Of a stretch of 64,000 bases of DNA, positions 2,642 to 22,581 are shown piece by piece. The notes under the pieces were generated by a model. It was not told where the DNA came from. It saw only the letters and a program-made list of their open reading frames with translations, and ran no database searches. The stretch lies in the NCBI GenBank assembly GCA_030684935.1, contig JAUXXH010000036.1, positions 1 to 64,000 of the forward strand. Direction: 5' to 3'. Made by a program: the position numbers and the translations under genes. Within the stretch, counting starts at the first letter, position 1, and every line of letters begins with the position of its first letter. Origin of the DNA: Pseudolabrys sp. (GTDB taxonomy: Bacteria; Pseudomonadota; Alphaproteobacteria; Rhizobiales; Xanthobacteraceae).

Positions 2642-4225
2642 ATGGCAGGCGTGTTTCAGGACGACAAGATCTACGTCGGCAAAAGCGGCAAGGGCGAATA
2701 TCTCAGCCTCAAGCTCGCCAACCGGCACGGCCTGGTGACCGGCGCCACCGGCACCGGCAAGACCGTGACGCTGCAGGTGCTGGCGGAAGGTTTTTCCCGC
2801 GCCGGCGTGCCGGTCTTCGCCGCCGACATCAAAGGCGATCTGTCCGGCATCGCCGCGCTGGGCGAGGAAAAAGACTTTCTGGTCAAGCGCGCCACCGAGG
2901 TCGGCTTCAAATACCAGGTCGACGAATTCCCGGTGGTGTTCTGGGACCTGTTCGGCGAGCAGGGCCACCCGATCCGCACCAGCGTATTCGAGATGGGTCC
3001 GCTGCTGCTGTCGCGCATGCTCAACCTCAACGAGGTGCAGGAAGGCGTCATCAACATCGCCTTCCGCTTTGCCGACGACGAATTCGGCGCCGCCGATGAT
3101 GCCAACAAGGGCCTGGTCGATCTCCAGGACCTGCGCTCGCTGCTGTCCTACCTCTCCGACAATGCCAAGGAGATCGGTTCCCGCTACGGCAATGTGACCG
3201 CCACCAGCATCGGCGCGGTGCAGCGGCAACTGCTGGTGCTGGAAAACCAGGGCGGCGCCAAGTTCTTCGGCGAGCCGGCGCTGGCGCTCGACGACCTGAT
3301 GCGCGTCGACCGCGATGGCCGCGGCATCATCAACATGCTCGCCGCCGACAAATTGATGGAGAACCCGAAGCTCTACGCCACCTTCCTGCTGTGGCTGATG
3401 GCGGAGATGTTCGAGCAGCTTCCCGAGGTCGGCGACCTCGACAAGCCGAAGCTGGTGTTCTTCTTCGACGAGGCGCATCTGCTGTTCAACGACGCGCCGA
3501 AGCCGCTGCTCGACAAGATCGAGCAGGTGGTACGGCTGATCCGCTCCAAGGGCGTCGGCATCTATTTCGTCACCCAGAACCCGCTCGACGTGCCCGACAA
3601 GGTGCTGGCGCAGCTCGGCAACCGGGTACAGCACGCGCTGCGCGCCTTCACGCCGCGCGACCAGAAGGCGGTGCGGGCCGCGGCCGAGACGTTCCGGCCG
3701 AACCCGAAACTCAATACCGAGCAGGTGATCACGCAACTGGGCAAAGGCGAGGCGCTGGTGTCGTTCCTGGAAGGCAACGGCACGCCGAGCATGGTCGAGC
3801 GCACGCTGATCTGCCCACCGGCAGGGCGGCTCGGAACGCTGACGGCGCCGGAGCGGCGCGCCGTGGTTGCGCGCAGCCCGCTGCGCGGCAAATACGACCA
3901 GGCGATCGACCCGGATTCAGCGCACGAAATGCTGCAGCGCCGGGTGGCGGAAAAGGCCGAGACCGTGCCGGCGCCCAAGGGCGCCGCGCCGCGCGGCCGC
4001 ACCGTGCCGAACTCTGGCCCGACGGTGCCGCCGCCGGCGACGGGCGGCGGCTGGCGCGACACGCTGGGCGGCGTGCTCGGCGGCGGCGGCGGTTCGCGCG
4101 GCCGCATGTCGACCGGCGAGATCGTGGTCAAGCAGGTGGCCCGTTCGGTCGCGTCCCAGGTCGGCGGGCAGCTCGGCCGGGCGGTGATGCGCAGCATCTT
4201 CGGCAACCTGACCGGACGGCGCTGA
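2642..4225 (+). CDS. HerA-like ATPase of the DUF853 / YjgR family
   Basis: This is a P-loop ATPase of the HerA/FtsK-like superfamily, DUF853 (YjgR) branch, about 527 residues from the ATG at 2642. Walker A is GATGTGKT (residues 34-41) and Walker B is [12 protein letters not shown], followed by [16 protein letters not shown], a sensor-like motif conserved in the family. The C-terminal 100 residues are Pro/Gly-rich, with a run of glycines before a final helix. The upstream extension to 2585 falls in the hairpin array and was left out. Cellular role is unproven: family members are usually called helicase-like, but no substrate is known. It is followed at 62 bp by a small basic protein on the same strand. 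Confidence 0.9.
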
Positions 4226-10740: not shown

Positions 10741-12159
10741 TCATCCGTCAAGCACCCACGTATCCTTGGTCCCGCCGCCCTGGCTGGAATTGACCACCAG
10801 CGAGCCGTGCTTCAGCGCCACCCGCGTCAAGCCTCCCGGCACGATGCGAACCTTGTCGCTGCCTGTCAGCACGAACGGGCGCAGATCGACGTGACGCGGC
10901 GCCACGCCTTCCTCGACGCAGGTCGGGCAGGTCGACAGCGCCAAAGTCGGCTGGGCGATGAAGTTCTCCGGCGCCGCCTTGAGCTTTGCGCGGAATTGTT
11001 CGATCGCGATCTTGCTGGCGGTCGGCCCGATCAGCATGCCGTAACCGCCGGAGCCGTGCACTTCCTTGACCACCAGTTCGTTGAGATGGTCGAGCACATA
11101 GGCAAGCTGTTCCGGCTCGCGGCAGCGCCAGGTCGGCACCGTCTTCAGGATCGGCTCTTCGCCGAGGAAGAACTTCAGGATCGCCGGCATGAAGCTGTAG
11201 ATCGCCTTGTCGTCGGCGATGCCGGTGCCGACGGCGTTGGACAGCGTCACGTTGCCGGCCTGGTAGGCCGACATCAGGCCGGGGACGCCGAGCGCGCTAT
11301 CGGGGCGGAAGGTGAGGGGATCGAGATAGTCGTCGTCGATGCGCCGGTAGATGACGTCGACCCGGCGCGGACCCTGCGTGGTGCGCATGTAGACCACTTC
11401 GTTCTTGACGAACAGGTCGCGGCCCTCGACCAGTTCGACGCCGAGCTTGTCGGCCAGGAACGAGTGCTCGTAATAGGCGGAATTGAAGACGCCCGGCGTC
11501 AGCAGCACAACGGTCGGCTCGCGCATCGCCGACAGCGGCGCGGCCGATTTCAGGGTGGCCAGCAGTTCGTCCGGATAGTTCTCGACCGGCGCGATGCGGT
11601 GGCGCGAGAACAGCTCCGGGAACAGCCGCATCATGATCTCGCGGTTCTCCAGCATATAGGAGACGCCGGAGGGCGTGCGGGCATTGTCCTCGAGGACGTA
11701 GAAGGTGTCGGCGTCGACCCGGATGATGTCGATGCCGGCGATGTGGACATAAATGTCGTGCGGCACTTTTTGCCCGCTCATCTCCGGCCGGAAGGCGGGG
11801 TTGCGGAACACCATGTCCTCCGGCACGACGCCGGCGCGCAGGCACTCGCGGGCGCCGTAGACGTCTTTGATGAACATGTTCAGCGCCTTGACGCGCTGCG
11901 CCAGGCCCTTTTCCAGCAGCCGCCATTCATCGGCAGCTAGAATGCGCGGGATTACGTCGAACGGGATCAGGCGTTCGCTGGCGTCGGCCTCGCCATAGAC
12001 GGCGAAGGTGATGCCGATGCGGCGGAAGATGAGTTCGGCTTCGCGGCGCCGGTAGTCGAGAACGTCCGGCGGCACTTCCTTGAGCCAGCGGGCGAGCTCG
12101 CCATAAGCGGGGCGCACGCCACCGTCCAAGCCCTTCATCTCATCGAAGGCGGCAGACAT
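10741..12159 (-). CDS. Circularly permuted ATP-grasp protein, first gene of the Anbu operon
   Basis: This 472-residue protein is a circularly permuted ATP-grasp enzyme of the type found with alpha-E and Anbu genes. Recognisable segments are VYGEADASERLIPFDVIPR, DIYVHIAGIDIIRVDADTF, YVLEDNARTPSGVSYMLENR, the central LTPGVFNSAYYEHSFLADKL and KEVHGSGGYGMLIGPTAS, the last probably the ATP-binding Gly-rich loop. ATP-grasp enzymes join carboxylates to amines or thiols, so a peptide-ligase function is expected, with the substrate unknown. It is the first gene of the operon, preceded by a 353-bp gap. The start is the only ATG that includes all the conserved N-terminal residues. Confidence 0.92.
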   Translation of the reverse strand: MSAAFDEMKGLDGGVRPAYGELARWLKEVPPDVLDYRRREAELIFRRIGITFAVYGEADASERLIPFDVIPRILAADEWRLLEKGLAQRVKALNMFIKDVYGARECLRAGVVPEDMVFRNPAFRPEMSGQKVPHDIYVHIAGIDIIRVDADTFYVLEDNARTPSGVSYMLENREIMMRLFPELFSRHRIAPVENYPDELLATLKSAAPLSAMREPTVVLLTPGVFNSAYYEHSFLADKLGVELVEGRDLFVKNEVVYMRTTQGPRRVDVIYRRIDDDYLDPLTFRPDSALGVPGLMSAYQAGNVTLSNAVGTGIADDKAIYSFMPAILKFFLGEEPILKTVPTWRCREPEQLAYVLDHLNELVVKEVHGSGGYGMLIGPTASKIAIEQFRAKLKAAPENFIAQPTLALSTCPTCVEEGVAPRHVDLRPFVLTGSDKVRIVPGGLTRVALKHGSLVVNSSQGGGTKDTWVLDG

Positions 12160-12512
12160 CTTCAGGAACCCCCAGCGGCGCGACGGCGATGCGTGCCTTA
12201 AAGGACGGCTGTCCTTTCCCTCACGGGGGCGGCGAACGCCGTCCCCGGCTATTTATTCTGCAAGCTTCAGGCCAAGACTAGCCCAACTCAGGCCGCGAAG
12301 TACCCGGCGCAATGCCGCAGAAAGCTAGGAAAACCACGGACTTGCGGCTGTTGGCAACGGCTGGATTCACGGTATCTGCCTGTTTTTTGGGCGGATTTGC
12401 TGCCGGGATAAGCCGAGCGGCCCGTTAAAGTTCCATCCGATCGGACCGGCCGCTTGAGCAGCCCGCGGGGTCACGCTAGGTCTCGGGGCCACGCCAAGGA
12501 ATCCAGCACGCC
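12160..12512. other. Intergenic region between divergent Anbu operon and CinA-like gene
   Basis: This 353-bp gap presumably holds the promoters of both operons. The clearest structure is the inverted repeat AAAGGAC-ggct-GTCCTTT at 12200-12217, about 45 bp from the ATP-grasp start, which could be an operator or a leader hairpin. I see no gene in the remainder. Confidence 0.5.
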
Positions 12513-13277
12513 ATGACCAGCTCTTCGCCCGCATCCGTGACCGCCGCCGTCCTGGTGATCGGTGACGAGATCCTCTCCGGCCGGACCAAGGACAAGAACA
12601 TCGGCTACATCGCCGAGTACATGACCGCGCTCGGCATCGACGTGAAGGAAGTGCGGGTGGTCTCCGACGACGAGGCCGACATCGTCGCGGCGCTGAACGC
12701 GCTGCGCCAGCGCTACACGTATGTTTTCACCACCGGCGGTATCGGCCCGACCCATGACGACATCACCGCCGATTGCGTCGCCAAGGCGTTCGGCCTGCCG
12801 ATCCACCACGACCCCCGCGCGGTGGCGATCATGACCGAGCGCGCCGCCAAGACCGGCACCGAGATGAACGAGGCGCGCATGCGCATGACGCGCATGCCCG
12901 TGGGTGCCGAGCTGGTGCTCAACAAGGTGTCCGGCGCGCCGGGCTTCTGGATCGAGAACGTCATCGTGATGGCCGGCATCCCGTCGGTGATGCAGGGCAT
13001 GCTCGACGAGGTCGCGCCCAAGCTCAAGACCGGCGTCAAGCTGATCTCGGAAACCATTCGCGCCGATGCGCGCGAAGGCGATGTCGGCACCGAACTCGGC
13101 CTGGTCGCCAAGGCGCATCCCGACACCATGATCGGCAGCTATCCTTTCTTCGACGAGAAGGGCGACCCGAACACCAACATCGTGGTGCGCGCGCGCGACC
13201 CGGAGAAACTCGCCGCCGCCAGGGCCGCGGTCGAGACCATGCTGGTCAAGGTCAAGGCGGAGATGACCAAGGCTTGA
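12513..13277 (+). CDS. CinA-like molybdopterin-binding domain protein
   Basis: This 254-residue protein matches the N-terminal (MoaB/MogA-like) domain of the competence/damage-inducible protein CinA: AAVLVIGDEILSGRTKDKNI at the start, TTGGIGPTHDDITADCVAKAF for the molybdopterin-cofactor-type loop, and VSGAPGFWIENVIVMAGIPSVM. The deamidase domain of full CinA is absent. Such stand-alone proteins are common in alphaproteobacteria. Some family members hydrolyse nucleotide pyrophosphates, so a nucleotide-repair role is possible, but nothing here proves it. The next gene starts 68 bp downstream on the same strand. Confidence 0.88.
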   Translation: MTSSSPASVTAAVLVIGDEILSGRTKDKNIGYIAEYMTALGIDVKEVRVVSDDEADIVAALNALRQRYTYVFTTGGIGPTHDDITADCVAKAFGLPIHHDPRAVAIMTERAAKTGTEMNEARMRMTRMPVGAELVLNKVSGAPGFWIENVIVMAGIPSVMQGMLDEVAPKLKTGVKLISETIRADAREGDVGTELGLVAKAHPDTMIGSYPFFDEKGDPNTNIVVRARDPEKLAAARAAVETMLVKVKAEMTKA

Positions 13278-13344
13278 TCCTCCGCGTGCGGCGCTGACGC
13301 GGTCGTGATCGCACCGCATTGACGATCGCGTCTACGGTGCGCGC

Positions 13345-13920
13345 ATGGGCCATCCGATCACACGTGCTTTTCTTATTGTTGCGATGTTGACCTCCGGCGC
13401 TTCGATTGCTGCGGCCGACCCGCGCGCCTGGGAGGCCCTGCGCGGCGATGGCCATGTCGCTCTGATCCGCCATGCTTCGGCGCCGGGCGTCGGCGATCCG
13501 GCCGGCTACCGGCTCGACGACTGCATGACGCAACGCAATCTCAACGATGCCGGCCGCGGCGCCGCCCGCGCACTGGGCGACCGCTTCCGCGCCGAGCGCG
13601 TTAGGGTCGGCAAGGTCGTGGCCTCGCAATGGTGCCGTTCGCGCCAGACCGCCGAACTCATGAATATCGGTCCTGTCGAGGACGCGCCGGCGTTCAACAA
13701 CGTCTTCGTGCTGCGCGATCAGCGCGACCGGATCACCGCCGAGGGTCGGGCGGCGATCGCCGCCTGGGGCGGGCCGGGGACGCTGGTGGTCGGCACCCAT
13801 GGCGACAATATTTATGAACTGCTCGGGTTCAATCCGCGCGAGGCCGAGGTCGTGGTGGTGAAGCCGGACGCGGCCGACCCGCGCAAGATGCGGCTGATCG
13901 GACGCATCCCGCCGCCCTGA
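13345..13920 (+). CDS. Secreted histidine phosphatase family protein
   Basis: This is a 191-residue protein of the histidine phosphatase (phosphoglycerate mutase-like) superfamily. An N-terminal signal peptide (MGHPITRAFLIVAMLTSGAS, then IAAA) points to the periplasm. The catalytic loop reads LIRHASAPG, with RHA in place of the usual RHG; NLNDAGRGAARALGD and SQWCRSRQTAEL follow, and the second catalytic His is in VVGTHGDNIYELLG. The substrate is unknown. The next gene starts at 14035 in the same direction. Confidence 0.87.
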   Translation: MGHPITRAFLIVAMLTSGASIAAADPRAWEALRGDGHVALIRHASAPGVGDPAGYRLDDCMTQRNLNDAGRGAARALGDRFRAERVRVGKVVASQWCRSRQTAELMNIGPVEDAPAFNNVFVLRDQRDRITAEGRAAIAAWGGPGTLVVGTHGDNIYELLGFNPREAEVVVVKPDAADPRKMRLIGRIPPP

Positions 13921-14034
13921 TCCGGAACAGCGGCCCACAGAAATATAGGCTGTTTTCGCGGCGGGCGTTCGGTTTTGCGGGGAACTAGGCTAGAACGGGC
14001 CGTCCTTTATCCGCGACCTGCCGAGAACCCAGCT

Positions 14035-14544
14035 ATGTCCGATGCCGCGCCCCGTCCCGAGAAGGTTTTTCCCGTTTCCTGGGACCAGTTTCACCGCGAC
14101 GCGCGGGCGCTGACCTGGCGGTTGCATGCGGCCGGGCCGTTCGAGGCGATCGTCTGCATCACCCGCGGCGGCCTGGTGCCGGCGGCCATCGTGGCGCGCG
14201 AACTCAACGTGCGCATCATCGAAACCGTCTGCATCGCCAGTTATCACGACTACAAGAACCAGGGCCCGGTCAACGTGCTCAAGGGCATTGCGCCCGAGAT
14301 CAGCTCGATGCGCGCGCAGGGCAAGGGCGTGCTGATCGTCGATGACCTGGTCGATACCGGCAAGACCGCGCGCGTGGTGCGCGAGCTGCTGCCGTCGGCG
14401 CATTTCGCCACCGTCTACGCCAAGCCGATGGGCCGGCCGCTGGTCGACACCTTCATCACCGAGGTGTCGCAGGATACCTGGATCTATTTTCCGTGGGACA
14501 CGGGCCTGGCCTTCGTGCCGCCGATCCGGGCGGGGGGCGACTGA
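14035..14544 (+). CDS. gpt: Xanthine phosphoribosyltransferase
   Basis: This 169-residue enzyme transfers phosphoribose from PRPP to xanthine (and guanine) in purine salvage. The PRPP-binding motif is [17 protein letters not shown], preceded by [25 protein letters not shown], both typical of Gpt-type enzymes. I chose the ATG at 14035 ([20 protein letters not shown]), which matches the usual length; a longer frame from 13975 adds 20 residues without support. The substrate preference is by family and not proven here. Confidence 0.9.
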
Positions 14545-14588
14545 AACACATTCCACACGGCATAAAAACAAGATCAGGGAGAAGACAC

Positions 14589-15578
14589 ATGCTCAACCGA
14601 CGTACGTTTCTCGCCAGCGCGGCCTCGGTGGCGGTGGCCGGCGCCGTCGCGCCCGCCGGCGCGCAGACGGCCTATCCGGCGAAACAGATCAGTATTCTGG
14701 TCGGCTATCCGGCCGGCGGTGGCGTCGACATCGTCGCGCGCATGGCGGCCGAGGCGATGCGGCCGCTCGGCCAGAACGTGGTGGTCGAGAACCGCACCGG
14801 CGCCAGCGCCATGATCGCGGCCGGCGCGGTCGCCAAGGCGGTGCCCGACGGCCACACGCTGCTGATGGCGGCCTCGGGCGAGGTGGCGATCAACCATTTT
14901 CTGTTCAAGGAGAAGATGAACTACGATCCGCTGCGTGAACTGACGCCGGTGGCGCTGATCGGCATCGTGCCCTGCGTGGTCGTGGTCAACGTCAACACGC
15001 CGGTCAACAACCCGAAGGAACTGATCGCCTACGCCAAGGCCAATCCCGGCAAGCTGTCGTTCTCGTCGTCCGGCATCGGCAATCCGCAGCAGCTCGCGGG
15101 CGAACTGATGAACAGCATGGCCGGCATCAACGTGCTGCACGTGCCGTATCGCGGCTCGGCGCCGGCGGTGACCGATGTGGCGACCGGCGCGGTCACCATG
15201 AGCTTCTCCAGCCTGGCGGCGGCGCTGCCGCTGATCCAGGGCGGCAAGCTGCGCGCGGTGGCGGTCACCTCGAAGGAACGGATGCCGCAACTGCCCGACG
15301 TGCCGCCGCTGCATGAAGGCGCGCCGGGTCTGGCCGGCTACGAACTGCTGAACTGGTTCGGCCTGTTCGCCACCGCCGGCACGCCGCCGGCCGTGATCGA
15401 CCGGCTGAACGGCGTCGTCAACGCCATGCTGAAGGACAAGACGGTGGCGGACAAGCTGATGACGCAGGGCATCGTGCCGACGACTATGACGGCCAGGGAA
15501 TACAAGGCCTTTGTCGATTCTGAGGCCGCCAAGTTCGGCAAGATCGTCGAGCAGGCCAATATTAAGTTGAGCAACTAG
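14589..15578 (+). CDS. Bug-family periplasmic tricarboxylate-type substrate-binding protein
   Basis: This 329-residue protein is a Bug (tripartite tricarboxylate transporter TctC-like) extracytoplasmic binding protein. The leader MLNRRTFLASAASVAVAGAV carries an RRTFL twin-arginine-like motif before a hydrophobic stretch, then AGAQTAYPAKQISILVGYPAGGGVDIVARM, the family signature. The later segments GKLSFSSSGIGNPQQLAGEL and VPYRGSAPAVTDVATGAVTM are also typical. No membrane components are adjacent, as is usual for Bug proteins, so the ligand cannot be deduced. A cupin gene follows 51 bp downstream on the same strand. Confidence 0.93.
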   Translation: MLNRRTFLASAASVAVAGAVAPAGAQTAYPAKQISILVGYPAGGGVDIVARMAAEAMRPLGQNVVVENRTGASAMIAAGAVAKAVPDGHTLLMAASGEVAINHFLFKEKMNYDPLRELTPVALIGIVPCVVVVNVNTPVNNPKELIAYAKANPGKLSFSSSGIGNPQQLAGELMNSMAGINVLHVPYRGSAPAVTDVATGAVTMSFSSLAAALPLIQGGKLRAVAVTSKERMPQLPDVPPLHEGAPGLAGYELLNWFGLFATAGTPPAVIDRLNGVVNAMLKDKTVADKLMTQGIVPTTMTAREYKAFVDSEAAKFGKIVEQANIKLSN

Positions 15579-15629
15579 GCCGCCATTCGTTCTATGATCC
15601 GCTAGAGCCTTTATCCCGGGAGGACCGCG

Positions 15630-16088
15630 ATGAACGTCAAGCCGAATACCGACAATGCGACGCCCGTCAACGCCGACCTGCTGTCGCGCGTGGTGCGCGC
15701 CAAGGACATGCCGTGGCAGACGATGCGCTTTCCCGGCTGCGAGATGAAGACCTTGCTGTTCGACGCCAAGAGCGGGCTCGCCACCATGCTGATGCGGATG
15801 GCGCCGGGCGCGGTTCTGCCCGACCATGAGCACGTGCTGATCGAGCAGACCTATGTGCTGGAGGGTTCGCTGGTCGACAAGGAAGGCCCGGATGCCGGCA
15901 TCGAGGTCGGCGCCGGCGAATTCGTCTGGCGTCCGGCCGGCTCGCGGCACACCGCCTGGAGCCCGAAGGGCGGCACCTTCCTCGCCATGTTCCAGATCCC
16001 GAACAAGTTCTTCGATCAGGAAGGCAAGGTGGTCGACGCCTCCGGCAAGGACTGGGACGAGGTCTGGGGCCCGTTATTAGCCAGATAG
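15630..16088 (+). CDS. Cupin domain protein of ChrR type
   Basis: This is a 152-residue single-domain cupin. The metal-binding residues are visible: HEHVLIEQTYVLEGSL gives His, His and Glu, and SRHTAWSP gives the last His. AGEFVWRPAGSRH and GTFLAMFQIPNKFF are typical of the ChrR-like (anti-sigma factor cupin) branch. A start at 15630 is preceded by GGGAGGACCGCG. The function could be a metal-dependent dioxygenase or isomerase of unknown substrate. The gene lies just downstream of the Bug-type binding protein and upstream of tRNA-Leu. Confidence 0.85.
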   Translation: MNVKPNTDNATPVNADLLSRVVRAKDMPWQTMRFPGCEMKTLLFDAKSGLATMLMRMAPGAVLPDHEHVLIEQTYVLEGSLVDKEGPDAGIEVGAGEFVWRPAGSRHTAWSPKGGTFLAMFQIPNKFFDQEGKVVDASGKDWDEVWGPLLAR

Positions 16089-16140
16089 CCTGACGCCGCC
16101 CGCGTGGACCTGTCCTCCGCGCGTGCGGCGGACGACCCCC

Positions 16141-16226
16141 GCGGACGTGGTGGAATGGTAGACACTAGGGACTTAAAATCCCTTGGGAGTAATCCCGTCC
16201 GGGTTCGAGTCCCGGCGTCCGCACCA
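16141..16226 (+). tRNA. tRNA-Leu (anticodon UAA)
   Basis: The acceptor stem GCGGACG (16141-16147) pairs with CGTCCGC (16216-16222), followed by A and an encoded CCA. The anticodon loop reads ACTTAAAAT with TAA as anticodon, and the T-loop GGTTCGAGT is intact. The long variable arm of class II tRNAs is visible (GGGAGTAATCCC). The tRNA marks the left edge of a low-GC gene pair. Confidence 0.97.
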
Positions 16227-16252
16227 AATTTAGAGCCATTGGATTTTTATTC

Positions 16253-16948
16253 ATGGTTGAGTCGCGCATTGCGGATTTGCGGACTTTCTATTCTATCCTG
16301 GACCATCTCGCCGGAAGTCTTGGCGGCGCCAAACTGCTCGCCGAATGTACTGGCCGGCTTTCATGGCCGCGACGGGGCGTCTACTTTTTCTTTGAGGCCG
16401 GCGAGCAGCGCAGTGATAGCGGCGACGGACCACGCGTTGTTCGCGTTGGCACTCACGCGCTTACCAGCACCTCGCGCTCAAAATTGTGGACACGACTTTC
16501 ACAGCATCGCGGCCAGACAGGCAGCGGCGGCGGCAATCATCGGGGCTCTATCTTCCGGCTAATAGTTGGTACTGCGCTTATAAGTCGAGGCGTTCAGACT
16601 TGCCCGAGTTGGGGTAAGGGCAGCAGCGCGGCTCGGGACATCCGAGAGTTGGAAGTCGAGCTTGAGCGCCAGGTTAGCGCAGTTATTCGCGCTATGCCGT
16701 TTATCTGGGTTGCCGTAGACGACGAGCCAGGGTCGGGAAGTTTGCGTGGCTATATCGAACGAAACGCCATTGCATTGCTGAGTAACTTTGGGCGCGATCG
16801 GGTTGATCCGCCTTCCTCTCGATGGCTTGGTCATCAGTGCGATCGTCCCCGGGTCCGCGAATCAGGACTCTGGAACTCCAATCACGTCGATGAATCGTAT
16901 GATCCGGCTTTTCTCGGTGAGCTCGAACGTCTGGTAGCCATGCAATGA
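16253..16948 (+). CDS. Unknown protein, possible GIY-YIG-like nuclease (first gene of the tRNA-linked pair)
   Basis: The 231-residue product was not recognised as a named family. Features suggesting a GIY-YIG-type nuclease fold are RGVYFFFE (41-48) followed by RVVRVGTH (61-68), then Arg81 in TRLSQHRG and a later YIERNAIALLSN (167-178) with Glu169 and Asn178. The distance between the first two motifs is longer than in classic GIY-YIG proteins. NHRGSIFRLIVGTAL and SGLWNSNHVDESYDP are other strongly structured stretches. The gene starts 26 bp after tRNA-Leu, is AT-richer than its neighbours, and its last four bases overlap the next start (ATGA), so the two are probably co-translated. Restriction or defence is a guess. 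Confidence 0.7.
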   Translation: MVESRIADLRTFYSILDHLAGSLGGAKLLAECTGRLSWPRRGVYFFFEAGEQRSDSGDGPRVVRVGTHALTSTSRSKLWTRLSQHRGQTGSGGGNHRGSIFRLIVGTALISRGVQTCPSWGKGSSAARDIRELEVELERQVSAVIRAMPFIWVAVDDEPGSGSLRGYIERNAIALLSNFGRDRVDPPSSRWLGHQCDRPRVRESGLWNSNHVDESYDPAFLGELERLVAMQ

Positions 16949-17604
16949 TTGCGGTGATTCAGTGCGCCGCAAACAAGCGGGTTGACGCTGGATATTTTCA
17001 CCATGCGAACGGAAGAGCGGTACAGTTTGTTGCGGACCCTTCCAAGATAACGTCGTCCGATCGATACGTTTTCGCGAGGCCCGATGACATTGCTCGAGAG
17101 GGGGTGTCGTGGCGAGATTTGCTGGTGCAATATAATCTGTCGCCGAATAAGAATCCGTACGCTCTACTTCCCGCCATCGATCTCTATACCAATGAGTGCT
17201 ACCGAAAGCTTGCCTCAAAGGTCGGCAGAGGTAACACCTATATACTTTCAGCGGGCTGGGGTCTCATTTCGGCAGACTTCCTTACGCCGGTCTACGACAT
17301 CACCTTCAGCGGCGCTGCTGATCCTTGCAAGAGACGCCGCCGAGGCGATGTCTACCGAGATTTGCGCATGCTGCCTGCTGCGGAGGTCCCGGTTCTGTTT
17401 TTTGGCGGCAAGGACTACGTCTCTTTATTTTGTGAACTGACAAGTCACGTCAAGGGGCCTAGGATAGTTTTCTATAACTCATCAAAGCCGCCTGCTGCAG
17501 TGAATTGCCGCTTGCATCGCTTCGACACGTCCACGCGCACGAATTGGCACTATGAATGTGCTCGTGCCTTCATAGAAGGGCGGCTGAGACTGCCAGAAGC
17601 TTGA
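16945..17604 (+). CDS. Unknown protein resembling YaaA/DUF6884-type proteins (second gene of the tRNA-linked pair)
   Basis: The 219-residue product is not a family I can name with certainty. Near the N-terminus IQCAANKR (5-12) resembles the Cys/Lys loop of YaaA and DUF6884-type proteins; LYTNECYRKLA (80-90) and YILSAGWGLISADFLTPVYD (99-118) match the usual later motifs of such proteins, and FFGGKDY (152-158) and TRTNWHYECARAFI (197-210) are further well-conserved-looking stretches. Codon use is AT-richer than in neighbours and the start overlaps the preceding gene through ATGA. YaaA-like proteins are DNA-binding, so a nucleic-acid role fits the nuclease-like partner, but this is inference. 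Confidence 0.7.
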   Translation: MIAVIQCAANKRVDAGYFHHANGRAVQFVADPSKITSSDRYVFARPDDIAREGVSWRDLLVQYNLSPNKNPYALLPAIDLYTNECYRKLASKVGRGNTYILSAGWGLISADFLTPVYDITFSGAADPCKRRRRGDVYRDLRMLPAAEVPVLFFGGKDYVSLFCELTSHVKGPRIVFYNSSKPPAAVNCRLHRFDTSTRTNWHYECARAFIEGRLRLPEA

Positions 17605-17704
17605 GATCGCGGACTTAAATGCGATTGTTCTATTGCTGGCTTGAGCTCGCCGCGCGGGGCGCATGTCCGTCCCCGCGCGGCGTTGCTTCGGCTTGTCCCG
17701 CCGC

Positions 17705-17893
17705 TCAGCGGAACAGAGCGCGGGCGAGGACAACCAGTCCTGCGATGCCGATGCACATCACGATGCCGGGCATGAAGGCTGTGAGCGTCGGCGAGGTGAC
17801 GAAGCGGTGGGGCTTGCCCTCTTCAGGCGTGGCAAAAATGAAGAGGCCGACAGCGAGTGCCAGCAGTGTGGAGCCGGAGAGAATGTTGATCAT
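17705..17893 (-). CDS. Small two-helix membrane protein
   Basis: The 62-residue product has two hydrophobic segments, at roughly residues 6-20 (LSGSTLLALAVGLFIFA) and 36-56 (LTAFMPGIVMCIGIAGLVVLA), joined by a short polar loop (TPEEGKPHRFVTS), so it is probably a membrane hairpin. I started it at the ATG at 17893, which is preceded by AAAGG; a longer frame begins at 17926. I do not recognise a family. Confidence 0.6.
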   Translation of the reverse strand: MINILSGSTLLALAVGLFIFATPEEGKPHRFVTSPTLTAFMPGIVMCIGIAGLVVLARALFR

Positions 17894-17993
17894 GATGATA
17901 GCCTTTGCCGGCAGCGCGCCATGCATGATGGCGACGCCGCGGCGCCGTAAATTGCAGTGTGATGGGTGGGTGCGACCGTAATGGCCGCGCGTG

Positions 17994-18437
17994 TCAGGCC
18001 GTCAGCCGGGGCGGCGCGCGCGCATTGAAGGCGCGGGGCGTGAGAATCCGCGGCGCCGCGCCGATGCGGAAAGCCGGCGCGGACGCGGCGCGTGCCGGGG
18101 AAATCAGCAGGCCGGCGGGCGTCAGGGCGAAGGGCGCGTCGCCCGTGGCCGGGTCAGATGTGTGCGGGCCGCTCGGCAGTGCGGACACCGCCGCAAGAGG
18201 GCGCGGGGCCACGCGGGGCAGGGTGCCGGGGCTGGCAAAGACAGTCGACGGCGAATAGCCGGCGGGGATGTCGCTGGCGCCGAAAGCGGCCTGCGACAGC
18301 GTGCGGCCAGGGGCCGTCCAGTTCAGAACAAGGAGGATCGCCGCCAGGGCGCCGGCCAGCCGCCGCAACGATGTCGCTTTAAACCACATGGACGCGGGGC
18401 TCTGGCCGGCAATGCCCAGCATGGGCCACGCGAACAT
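17994..18437 (-). CDS. Hypothetical protein with one hydrophobic segment
   Basis: This frame of about 147 residues has a hydrophobic stretch (LAGALAAILLVLNWTAPG) that could be a membrane anchor or signal peptide, then a Pro/Ala-rich tail (ARPLAAVSALPSGP and similar) without visible motifs. Start is uncertain: ATG at 18437 or at 18389. There is no clear ribosome binding site, and its GC-rich composition makes a chance frame possible. I list it as tentative. Confidence 0.35.
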   Translation of the reverse strand: MFAWPMLGIAGQSPASMWFKATSLRRLAGALAAILLVLNWTAPGRTLSQAAFGASDIPAGYSPSTVFASPGTLPRVAPRPLAAVSALPSGPHTSDPATGDAPFALTPAGLLISPARAASAPAFRIGAAPRILTPRAFNARAPPRLTA

Positions 18438-18598
18438 AGGTTTCCGTCCGCCGGGGTGCAAGCATCCCGGCAGGCACGGACGTCATAATATCGCTACTTT
18501 GGGGCTATCGGGTGCGATAGAATCATATCAATGGTCTTGTTGCGCGCACGGAATGTCCCGCGGCCGCACCCTTGCAACAAAGTGCGTGACATAAAACC

Positions 18599-18979
18599 AT
18601 GCCGCTGACGATCCCTAAATCACGTATAGCGCTGCGTGCTGGCATCGCCGGCCTTGCGGTGATGGCGCTGTCCGGCTGCGCCTCGGACGAAACCGCTGGC
18701 AGTCTGTTGGTTTCGCCGGGCAAATTCACGCTCTTTACCTGCCCGGATCTGGTCCGGCATGAAGCGGGGCTGCTTGCACGGCAGCGCGTGCTGGAAGGCC
18801 TCATCGCCAAGGCTGGCCCGGACGCCGACGGCCGTTTCGTCAGCGCCATCGCCTACCGCCCCGAATATACCACGGTTCGGGCGGAGCGAAATTTGCTGCG
18901 CCGGGTCTTTGCCGAAAAGGAATGCCAAGGCTCCCTGACGCCCGCGCCGGCCGCCGGGGCCATGGCGCCACGCCGATAG
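18599..18979 (+). CDS. Small lipoprotein, unknown function
   Basis: The 126-residue protein has a clear lipoprotein signal: a basic start (MPLTIPKSRIALRAG), a hydrophobic core and the lipobox LSGC with Cys27 as the attachment site. The mature part contains FTCPDLVRHEAGLLARQRVL, which looks helical, and a second cysteine at ECQGSL, which may pair with the cysteine in FTCPD. The family is common in Bradyrhizobium-type genomes with no assigned function. The start follows no strong ribosome binding site, so a small N-terminal shift is possible. Confidence 0.75.
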   Translation: MPLTIPKSRIALRAGIAGLAVMALSGCASDETAGSLLVSPGKFTLFTCPDLVRHEAGLLARQRVLEGLIAKAGPDADGRFVSAIAYRPEYTTVRAERNLLRRVFAEKECQGSLTPAPAAGAMAPRR

Positions 18980-19067
18980 GTGCAGTTCCGGGCTTGGAAC
19001 TTTTCCGGCCCGCCGCCATTATCCTCCCACAGCCGCGCTGCGGCGCGGCATCACCACGGGGGCGGCC

Positions 19068-19235
19068 ATGGCCACAGGCGTACTTATCAGCATACTCATC
19101 ACGTTTCTTGTCGTTGTTCTGGTGCTTTACCTGATCAACATGCTGCCGATCGACGGCCGCGCCAAGCAGATCGCCCGCATTATCGTGATCATCATCGGCG
19201 TGCTGTCACTGCTCAGATACCTTTCGGTATTCTAG
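19068..19235 (+). CDS. 55-residue membrane protein of Thivi_2564 type
   Basis: This gene is too short for most gene finders: MATGVLISILITFLVVVLVL leads, then YLINMLPIDGRAKQIARIIV and a second hydrophobic segment IIIGVLSLLRYLSVF. The MLPIDGRAKQIAR loop between the two helices is characteristic of the Thivi_2564 family of small membrane proteins. GGGGGCGGCC precedes the ATG. Its last four bases overlap the stop of the convergent FG-GAP gene. Function is unknown. Confidence 0.8.
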   Translation: MATGVLISILITFLVVVLVLYLINMLPIDGRAKQIARIIVIIIGVLSLLRYLSVF

Positions 19236-20230
19236 TCGCGGCGGATCAGCACCAGAGACCCATCTGCAAGGCCGGCGGCAATCACCGCCGGCTTTGCGAT
19301 GTTGGACACCAGGGCAAGGTTTGTGACGGCCTGGGCCGGCAGTGCGACGACGGCGATTTCACGCGCACCCGACACGAATGAGATGAAGCGCAAGCGGCGG
19401 CGGTCGAGCGACGGCACGGCCAGATCGGCGATGCCGTCACCATCGAAGTCGGCCACCGCGCTCATGTCGATGGCGCGCGAACCGATGGCGTGATTGGAAA
19501 CGCCGGGCAGCTCCGCGATTTTGCGCATGGTGGTGCCGGCCCAGCCCCACAATTCGAGTGCGCCGACGACATGCGGTTGGCGCACCAGCGCGATCTCCAG
19601 CTTTCCGTCGCCGTTGAAATCGGCAATGCCGGCCGGGTCGAGCCAGCGGTTGGGCTGGCCGAGCGGCGGGGTCTCGGCGACGATCTCGTATTTGCCGTTG
19701 CGGTCGGCAATGACCGCCAGGCTGGCGCCGCGCGCGAGATAGGCCTTCACCACCACGATCTCGTCGATACCGTCGCCGTCCAGGTCGGCAAGGCGGGGCT
19801 GCAAATCCTCGAATACGGCGTCGTCCTTGAGCCGGATCGTCTGGCGATGGCCGCCGCGGGTTTCGATTTCCAGCGCCCCGGCCTCGATGGCATCGCCCAG
19901 CACGCCATGGCCGTAGCGCCTTGTCGGCTCGGACAGCCAGGTGCGGACGATGTTGCGCGTGCCGTAGGCCACGCGCCCGTCGGGCAGGGCGCCCTCGGGC
20001 CGTTCCGGCTGTGGCGGCGCCTCGACGAAGACCAGACGGGCCTTGGGACCGGTGAGTTCGATCCGGTACCAGAGCCCGCCGGCCATCACCAGCGTCTGGC
20101 CGCCGATCGTTTCGATTGCGGTCACGCGCGCCGGCGTGTCGAGCCGCTGCACACGCCATTCGGCGGCCTGGCTGGCGCCGGCAAAGGCGCACGCTGCCGC
20201 GGCAACAACGGCGAGACAGAAACGGTACAT
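19232..20230 (-). CDS. Secreted VCBS/FG-GAP repeat protein
   Basis: The 332-residue protein has a signal peptide (MYRFCLAVVAAAACAFAGAS, QAA) and then beta-propeller-type blades. Three calcium-binding-like loops are visible: LADLDGDGIDEIVVV, IADFNGDGKLEIALV and VADFDGDGIADLAVP, each spaced like FG-GAP/VCBS repeats. Such proteins are extracellular or periplasmic; the role is unknown. It ends 11 bp before copA, on the same strand, so it lies downstream of copA's stop but may be transcribed with it. It overlaps the stop of the 55-residue membrane protein. Confidence 0.85.
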   Translation of the reverse strand: MYRFCLAVVAAAACAFAGASQAAEWRVQRLDTPARVTAIETIGGQTLVMAGGLWYRIELTGPKARLVFVEAPPQPERPEGALPDGRVAYGTRNIVRTWLSEPTRRYGHGVLGDAIEAGALEIETRGGHRQTIRLKDDAVFEDLQPRLADLDGDGIDEIVVVKAYLARGASLAVIADRNGKYEIVAETPPLGQPNRWLDPAGIADFNGDGKLEIALVRQPHVVGALELWGWAGTTMRKIAELPGVSNHAIGSRAIDMSAVADFDGDGIADLAVPSLDRRRLRFISFVSGAREIAVVALPAQAVTNLALVSNIAKPAVIAAGLADGSLVLIRRD

Positions 20231-20241
20231 GCGGTGCGGAC

Positions 20242-22581
20242 CTAGAGTTTGACGCGGCGCAGGCGCAACGCATTGCCGACCACGCTGACCGACGACAGCG
20301 CCATCGCCGCCGCGGCGATGATCGGCGACAGCAGCAGGCCGAAGGTCGGGTACAGCACGCCGGCGGCAATCGGCACCCCGGCGGCATTGTAGACGAAGGC
20401 GAAGAACAAATTCTGCCGGATATTGTTCATGGTGGCGGCCGACAGCGCGCGCGCCCGGACGATGCCGGTCAGATCGCCGCCGAGCAGCGTGACGCCGGCG
20501 CTTTCGATGGCGACGTCCGAGCCCGTGCCCATGGCGAGCCCGACATCGGCCGCCGCCAGCGCCGGCGCGTCGTTGACGCCATCGCCGGCCATCGCCACGA
20601 CGCGGCCTTCGCCGCGCAGTTTTTCCACCACGGCGCTTTTCTGATCGGGCAGCACCTCGGCCTCGACCTCGTCGATGCCGAGACGTCTGGCGACGGCCAG
20701 CGCCGTGGTGCGGTTGTCGCCGGTGAGCATCACCACGCGGATGCCGAGCGCCTTCAAAGCGCGCACGGCGTCCGGTGTTGTCGGCTTGACCGGATCGGCT
20801 ATGGCGATGATGCCGGCCGGCTTGCCGTCGACGGCGACGAAGATGGCGGTGGCGCCGTCGGCGCGCAGGCGTTCGGCTTCTACGGACAGCGCTGCCGTGT
20901 CGATGGATAGTTCGGCAAGGAATTTGGCGTTGCCGATCGCCAGCCGTTTGCCCTCGACCATGCCGATGACGCCTTTGCCGGCAGGCGAGTCGAAGTCCTG
21001 CACCGGCGCGAGGTCGATGGCGCGGTCAGTTGCTTCCCTGACGATCGCCGTGGCCAGTGGATGTTCGCTGCTGCGCTCGGCGCTGGCGGCGAGCCGCAGC
21101 ACCTGCGCCTCGTCGAAGCCGTCAGCGGCGACCACCGCCACCACCTTCGGTTTGCCCTCGGTCAGGGTGCCGGTCTTGTCGACCACCAGCGTGTCGACCT
21201 TTTCCATCCGCTCCAGCGCTTCGGCGTTCTTGATCAGCACACCGGCCTGGGCGCCGCGGCCGACGCCGACCATGATCGACATCGGCGTCGCCAGCCCGAG
21301 CGCGCAGGGGCAGGCGATGATCAGCACGCTCACCGCCGCGACCAGCCCATAGGCGAAGCGCGGCTCCGGCCCGAACGTTGCCCAGGCGGCGAAGGCGACC
21401 AGCGCCACCGCAATCACCGTCGGCACGAACCAGCCGGAGACCCGGTCGGCGAGCCGCTGGATCGGCGCGCGGCTGCGCTGCGCGGTCGCCACCATCTGCA
21501 CGATCTGCGCCAGCAGCGTCTCGCGGCCGACCTTGTCGGCGCGCATGACGAAACTGCCGGAGGCATTCAGCGTGCCGCCGATCACGCGGGCATCCTTCTC
21601 CTTGGTCACCGGCATGGATTCGCCGGTCACCATCGATTCATCGAGCGACGAGCGGCCCTCGAGCACGACACCGTCGACCGGCACCTTGTCGCCGGGGCGT
21701 ACGCGCAGGCGGTCGCCCGGTTTCACGGCGTCGAGCGGGATGTCCGCGTCGCTGCCATCGTCCGCGACGCGGCGCGCGGTCTTGGGCGCCAGATCGAGCA
21801 GTGCCTTGATCGCGCCGGAGGTCGCCTCGCGGGCGCGCAGTTCGAGCACCTGGCCGAGCAGCACCAGCACGGTGATCATGCTGGCGGCTTCGAAGTAGAC
21901 CGCGACCGCGCCGCCGTGACCGCGGAAGGCCGGCGGGAACAGGCCGGGCGCCATCGTCGCGACCACGCTGTAGATGTAGGCGACGCCGACGCCCATGGCG
22001 ATCAGCGTGAACATGTTGAGGTTGCGCGTCAGCAGCGACTGGTAGCCGCGCTCGAAGAAGGGCCAGCCCGCCCACAGCACCACCGGCGTGGCGAAGGCGA
22101 ATTGCAGGTCGGCCGACAGGCCCGGATCGATCCAGTTGTGCGCGCCGGGGAAGTGACCGCCCATCTCCAGCACCATCACCGGCAGCGCCAGCAGCAGGCC
22201 GATCCAGAACCGTTTTGTCATGTCGGCCAGTTCGGGATTGGGGCCGCTGTCGGCGGTAACGGTTTCCGGCTCCAGCGCCATGCCGCAGATGGGGCAGGCG
22301 CCCGGGCCCTTCTGTCGGATTTCCGGGTGCATGGGGCAGGTGTAGATCGCGCCTTCGATTACCGGCGCCGGTTTGCGCGGGCCCAGATATTTTTGCGGAT
22401 CGGCGGTGAACTTGGTTTTGCAGCCGGCCGAGCAGAAATAATAAGAATGGCCGCGATGCTCGGTGCGGTGCTTGGCGGTGGCCGGATCGACCGTCATGCC
22501 GCACACGCGGTCGAGTACGCCGCCCGGCGTGGCTGGATGGCCGCCTGCTTCGTGACGGTGCGGTCTGGCGTTGGTGCTCAT
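20242..22581 (-). CDS. copA: Copper-exporting P-type ATPase with YHS and heavy-metal binding domains
   Basis: This 779-residue P1B-type ATPase pumps Cu(I) out of the cytoplasm. The N-terminus has a YHS domain (CGMTVDP at 27-33, FCSAGCK at 49-55) and a heavy-metal binding motif CPMHP...CPICGM (82-101) but no CxxC HMA domain. The core shows the TGES loop, CPC at 424-426 within [13 protein letters not shown] and DKTGTLT from 468, the phosphorylated Asp being 468. [16 protein letters not shown] is the hinge. It is divergent from the csoR-type gene across a 44-bp gap with a palindromic operator, so copper-induced expression is likely. Confidence 0.96.

Follow-up and report, generated by a model that had tools for sequence, protein, structure and literature searches.

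The window analysed here is a stretch of 64,000 nucleotides from a Pseudolabrys sp. contig. It holds two genes, called B and A below, directly behind a tRNA-Leu gene (Table 1). They overlap by ATGA and the first ATG lies 26 bp past the tRNA, which is the anatomy that a preliminary description of this DNA had given. L and G numbers are handles for loci and genomes.

Table 1. Features at the tRNA-Leu locus, in window coordinates.
Feature	Position	Strand	Remarks
tRNA-Leu(taa)	16141-16226	+	ARAGORN; intact; left edge of insert
Inserted segment, about 1.41 kb	16227-17638	+	Missing in sister-species congener L114
Gene B (gene 1), PDC-M57B family, 231 aa	16253-16948	+	PADLOC PDLC04714
Gene A (gene 2), DUF6884/YaaA-superfamily, 219 aa, 'long' form	16945-17604	+	Pfam PF21818
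Terminator-like hairpin directly 3' of gene A	17605-17626	+	Weak prediction

An insertion behind an intact tRNA gene

The GC fraction is 0.52-0.59 locally, against 0.62-0.72 in the rest of 12000-22000. At third codon positions (GC3) it is 0.56 for gene B and 0.57 for gene A, while the 58 other predicted genes of the window have a mean of 0.80 (sd 0.09) and just one of them is at or below 0.6; this contrast is somewhat inflated because the gene picker used favours high GC3. Elsewhere in this high-GC window, at 854-1312 on the minus strand, a further predicted gene stands out with a very low GC3 of 0.46.

The site is empty in L114, where the stretch with the cupin gene and the tRNA is 95% identical to the window. 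There, the tRNA end continues straight into sequence matching the window from 17639 on. This means that the window carries an insertion of two genes, about 1.41 kb long, exactly behind the tRNA CCA. The right edge was placed by eye at GCTTGA; BLAST homology restarts at 17650. The low-GC segment is acquired DNA, cleanly inserted behind an intact tRNA-Leu. The AT-richer third positions had earlier been taken as a sign of acquisition, and the empty site in the congener agrees.

Neither gene was found at this tRNA site in any of 18 congener loci, over stretches of 1.6 to 6.5 kb. Several of these loci (L115, L117, L123, L129) carry other, unrelated lower-GC DNA there, which makes the tRNA-Leu(taa) 3' end look like an insertion hotspot in the genus. 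In L129 an integrase-like gene (618-1805) follows soon past the inferred tRNA end.

The 1.4-kb insert itself consists of genes B and A only, with no integrase. Nor is there a flanking repeat at the window locus: the left and right flanks match with a score of 10, which is background level (cross-locus controls have a median of 8, a 99% point of 11 and a top of 15). Both absences had been noted in the preliminary description.

Three further candidate features were considered and rejected. A possible att remnant, 9 bp matching the anticodon arm, sits in the loop of the terminator-like hairpin and looks accidental, and the flank score is background. The hairpin is itself a weak prediction, since 16000-18000 holds two and shuffles lead one to expect 2.1. 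Conserved non-coding ends were not found either: across 37 matching stretches from relatives, the similarity at DNA level does not reach beyond the genes (16278-17446). Finally, the tRNA is no component of the system. Of 98 other loci, some with flanks shorter than 1 kb, just 4 have a tRNA within that distance, so the tRNA-adjacent layout that had been called typical is not a family trait.

The two proteins

Protein A matches Pfam DUF6884 at the cut-off (E=5.2e-7; 30.3 bits, where the curated cut-off is 30). Among PADLOC models it matches DpdC (E=7.3e-7) and PDC-M57A (E=5.1e-5, 21.6 bits). Its motifs CAANK (in IQCAANK) and LSAGWG fit the CxxxK and LSAxxG of DUF6884. Over 40 aligned rows, C7, L101, S102 and G106 are invariant and K11 and A103 nearly so; 39 of the 40 match the DUF6884 profile at E<=1.

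The AlphaFold2 model of A has a pLDDT of 96.5, and Foldseek found no match for it in the PDB at E<=0.001. With hhalign, the long A reaches the short DUF6884 partners found at other loci with 97.6%, and these reach YaaA with 89.4%. Directly, long A against YaaA gives 1.4%, so that the link runs via the short DUF6884 proteins only.

According to the Pfam paper, DUF6884 is marked by CxxxK and LSAxxG, folds like YaaA and may act in base flipping (PMC11701544). The domain of dpdC is given as DUF6884 in one source (PMC11888242); another files DpdC under DUF328/PF03883 and says that it converts dPreQ0 to dADG (PMC12839542). Protein A shares both motifs and the profile match with DUF6884 in the YaaA superfamily, the group of YfjM, YaaA and DpdC. 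Unlike DpdC systems, the window insert is without dpd genes.

The matches support A as a protein of the DUF6884/YaaA superfamily, also related to DpdC; the preliminary description had read gene 2 as YaaA/DUF6884-like. On the same sequence evidence, A is a probable DNA-base-binding or DNA-base-processing partner of B. As an aside, the DUF6884 model also matches YaaA-sized proteins at about 23-40 bits (in 151 of 249 genomes, E<=0.001). Annotations near its cut-off therefore mix two families.

Protein B is the PADLOC candidate defence protein PDC-M57B (E=2.4e-87, residues 5-229). It has no match in Pfam, NCBIfam or PHROGs. Its AlphaFold2 model has a pLDDT of 93.9.

GIY-YIG nucleases are defined by a set of motifs and by a topology, in the order strand-strand-helix...strand-helix. 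B has the GxY, xxG, Arg and Glu set (G42, Y44, G66, R81, E169) in that order. The model has strands at 42-52 and 60-67, a helix at 78-86, more helices, a strand at 149-154 and a helix at 164-176 that holds E169. In an alignment of 52 rows the invariant positions include G42, Y44, R64, G66, R81, H85, N95, H96, R97, E134, E138, R165, E169, W207 and N208, with T67 nearly invariant. In an earlier alignment of 8 rows G42 and Y44 were not invariant, because one Deinococcus row has a seemingly truncated start. Of the positions proposed from the single sequence, N178 is not conserved; the conserved Asn is N208.

Like GIY-YIG nucleases, B has GxY, VG and an E in the last core helix. It also has an R and an H four apart (R81/H85), as does the GIY-YIG protein aligned by hhalign. 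Unlike them, it has an invariant Arg64 at the place of the YIG Tyr (register by eye) and an extra NHRGS block, and its profile and fold matches to GIY-YIG are insignificant.

The preliminary description had called B possibly GIY-YIG-like and had proposed HHpred or structure prediction as a check. The outcome is divided: motif positions and predicted secondary structure are compatible, but hhalign gives GIY-YIG a probability of 2-3% (E 0.015-0.022), and Foldseek of the B model found no match in the PDB or BFVD at E<=0.001. The Pfam GIY-YIG model matched 1 of 56 B members weakly (E 0.28), and a PDB sequence search with the A and B profiles gave nothing credible. The GIY-YIG HMM scores B proteins at a median of -1.9 and a top of 4.1 (91 reported), versus a median of -3.8 and a top of 3.2 for shuffles (418 reported). 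The best-scoring B proteins mostly share one register around R81. The B of the window scores -2.9, which is not above typical shuffles. From its motifs and the predicted strand-helix order, B is likely a divergent GIY-YIG-like nuclease.

Distribution, mobility and neighbourhood of the pair

Loci were recruited via B alone, which gave 98 besides that of the window. An A-type (YaaA-like) gene adjoins B or is fused to it in 82 of these. Long A follows directly after B in 49, an A-type gene stands directly before B in 19, both are in one protein in 7 (in L061 with a weak A match only), and a weak or disrupted A is beside B in 7. A genome survey of this kind had been proposed as a check on the coupling of the two genes, and it finds a recurrent two-gene unit. 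By eye, the partners differ in architecture: besides long A there are short DUF6884 proteins, proteins in which an N-terminal segment resembling a winged helix precedes a YaaA-like part, and a CCxRK/SALxG type.

The other 16 loci have no adjacent A. They include all 4 haloarchaeal plasmid loci, although in 2 of these a frame weakly resembling A lies some 2 kb from B, and at least 4 loci with a contig end near B. In three of the haloarchaeal plasmids (L006, L008, L009) a convergent HNH endonuclease gene overlaps the end of B, and an ArdC-like or DUF955 gene precedes it. At L226:4883-9003, an A-B fusion is followed by SIR2-like, nucleoside deoxyribosyltransferase-like and recombinase-like genes (by eye).

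In the commonest, long-A form, A and B diverge together. Their distance matrices correlate with r=0.62 over 47 loci with long A, own included, and 0 of 5000 permutations were as high. Going by record titles, the tree of B (94 rows) spans ten bacterial phyla; it also contains haloarchaeal plasmids and a single Euryarchaeota bin, and the label Pseudomonadota needs 8 changes on it. Counting the genome of the window, gene B is carried by 2 of 43 genomes of the genus, 3 of 297 in the order sample and 2 of 398 in the phylum sample. In a congener (G693) the pair has a terminase-small-subunit gene and a ParB/methylase gene in its vicinity, and may thus lie in a prophage.

The window pair is a B-first, long-A form of a known but unstudied candidate system, PDC-M57, which PADLOC-DB v2.0.0 describes as M57A plus M57B. 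The B of the window is M57B and its A is weakly M57A. Unlike the PDC-M57A model (138 positions), this A is long (~220 aa) and carries an IQCAxxK block at its N-terminus; other loci have short forms in which A comes first. In the literature, PDCs are treated as candidates by guilt-by-embedding that await validation (PMC12988326). A search of the DefensePredictor paper for GIY-YIG, YaaA, DUF6884 and PDC-M gave no passage (PMC13092281).

The cassette is shared between bacterial families. Compared with blastn (E<=1e-10, matches over 150 bp), L038 (Rhizobium) and L039 (Mesorhizobium) are 96.5% identical over 1436 bp spanning both genes, with unmatched flanks (122 bp upstream and 9 kb downstream are available for L038). 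L053 (Salipiger) and L062 (Frigidibacter) are 93.7% identical over 1583 bp; about 9.8 kb upstream is unmatched, and L053 offers only about 290 bp downstream. Judged by these matches, the bare two-gene cassette moves between bacterial families by itself.

Clear direct repeats bracket the cassette in only 3 of 85 loci, with scores of 83-144 where 1500 cross-locus controls reach 15 at most. In L012 the repeats are 98 bp long (2255-2352 and 3881-3978). In L029 (9751-9902 and 11375-11526) they are 152 bp and in L036 (9735-9898 and 11356-11519) 164 bp; these two count as one case, since they have long flanks in common. In both, the left repeat coincides with the 3' end of a predicted gene, by eye a cobalamin adenosyltransferase-like one.

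The neighbourhood of the pair is rich in PADLOC matches. At 1e-15, 132 PADLOC families were matched by 129 proteins within 3.5 kb of the pair. Beyond 6.5 kb, 123 proteins matched 74 families. For 129 control proteins, taken from beside yaaA-like or GIY-YIG genes, the figure was 43; these controls were shorter (37,272 residues vs about 45,250 near the pair). Among the matches listed, which cover 25 families for each set, the near set has type I and II methylases, AbiEi/ii, SoFic, HEC-06, DruM, DrmMII, mad2 and Orf5. The far set has pAgo, JetC, Drt3a, SduA and mad2/mad3, and the control set has mad3, DpdF, BrxHI, SngC, PDC-S02, type I specificity and RT models. Whether the pair sits beside defence genes had been posed as a question earlier. 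The answer leans towards yes by this crude measure, which is supportive rather than strong because models, not proteins, were counted.

Defence, homing and other readings

The best explanation is that the pair belongs to a PDC-M57 kind of nuclease module, in which two genes that move horizontally target DNA, most likely that of phages; the odds are judged to be somewhat in favour of it. A, whose superfamily includes DpdC and the lesion-binding YfjM, would bind DNA and flip or process an unusual base. B, being GIY-YIG-like, would cleave at this base or close to it. The host's own DNA, lacking the unusual base, would escape. For that reason the pair could do without a methyltransferase, which is also the case in type IV and base-excision restriction. 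This division of labour is proposed because of superfamily membership, pairing and mobility.

Methylase-free defence by base-targeting enzymes has a described precedent in Brig1, of the uracil-DNA-glycosylase superfamily (PMC11078745), and Brig3, which resembles AAG (PMC13160076). The likeness is by analogy only: both act on modified phage bases with no self-methylation, as is proposed for the pair. A classical type II restriction-modification system was also considered and rejected, as the insert has only two genes and no methylase.

The module reading draws on the insertion, the pairing, the fusions, the co-divergence, the sharing of bare cassettes between families and the copies in phage contigs. 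Defence as the function is probable by association. The identity of B as PDC-M57B, the PADLOC matches among the neighbours and the link of DUF6884 to DpdC also count for it. The same phage contigs also supply points against defence: a pair in a head operon is odd for protecting a lysogen, and an HNH endonuclease uses the same slot. Further points against are the insignificant GIY-YIG matches, the crudeness of the PADLOC count, the unvalidated status of PDCs, the 16 loci with no adjacent A and the lack of a match to B among INPHARED records.

In 8 of 11 viral contigs, which may be prophages or fragments, the pair or B stands among head or packaging genes (L090-L096, L099). In another, L098, there is a portal-like gene on the opposite strand. 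In L091-L095 the pair lies between a head protease/major head gene and a head decoration gene; L090 has a B-first form 3' of a related decoration gene. B had no match in INPHARED (50,697 phage records) at E<=1e-5.

Both flanking genes are visible in 70 of 80 relatives of the phage head gene. The junction between head protease and decoration gene is empty in 67 of these, with 15-47 bp from one stop to the next open frame. The remaining three hold the pair (the source phage itself), an HNH_3 endonuclease gene (58 bits) and a 148-residue frame. The latter two occupants belong to relatives L294 and L287.

This bears on the main rival to defence, in which the pair is a two-component, free-standing, homing-endonuclease-like selfish element. 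In that scheme B would cut an unoccupied target site, to which A lends the DNA specificity, and the pair would be copied in during repair, as a rule at a conserved gene's 3' end. The clean, integrase-less insert behind the tRNA fits this, as do the recurring phage junction and its vacancy in most relatives, with an endonuclease gene once in its place. So do L029 and L036, where the cassette lies just past a predicted gene's 3' end with a duplication; fungal mitochondria have endonuclease elements that likewise come with a second copy of a gene's 3' end.

Homing is site-specific, whereas near-identical cassettes are found at unrelated sites. Partner swapping and PADLOC-rich neighbourhoods would be unexpected, and homing endonucleases are normally single genes. 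The shared phage site may also be simple descent, as the copies in L091-L097 form one clade on the tree. Set beside the free-standing phage homing endonucleases, the pair is alike in using an intergenic slot that an HNH_3 gene also uses, and unlike in being two conserved proteins at unrelated bacterial sites. On balance a selfish homing pair is unlikely. The defence and homing readings could both hold.

It is improbable that the two genes form a DNA repair pair without an anti-phage role, A locating damaged bases or ribonucleotides for incision by B. YfjM, a DUF6884 protein, is reported among the interactors of abasic and RNA-base lesions, which would suit such a role; the very patchy carriage, the low-GC mobile cassettes and the copies in phage contigs do not. 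A toxin-antitoxin-like pair, with a poisonous nuclease B that A restrains, would match two overlapping, mobile genes that are mostly inherited together, but it is most improbable given that A is a confidently folded protein of 219 residues with conserved CxxxK and LSAxxG, that some loci have B without a recognisable adjacent A, and that A-B fusions occur, which are unusual among toxin-antitoxin pairs.

The anti-phage module can also be given a bolder form, which is rather doubtful. Here, base processing by a YaaA-superfamily protein and cutting by a divergent GIY-YIG nuclease would make up a two-step, methylase-free restriction against one modified base. This would be a new class of mechanism. 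The cassette would also behave in a homing-like way at the 3' ends of conserved genes (tRNA, protein genes, the phage head operon), and so be both a weapon and a selfish element.

PDC-M57 is an unvalidated candidate, and a search of the available literature for that name found no paper. Fusions, partner swapping and co-divergence turn it into a concrete hypothesis, in which YaaA-type base handling is joined to a nuclease in two small proteins. For the YaaA/DUF6884 superfamily, which so far has little settled biochemistry, this would also provide a partner enzyme and a biological context.
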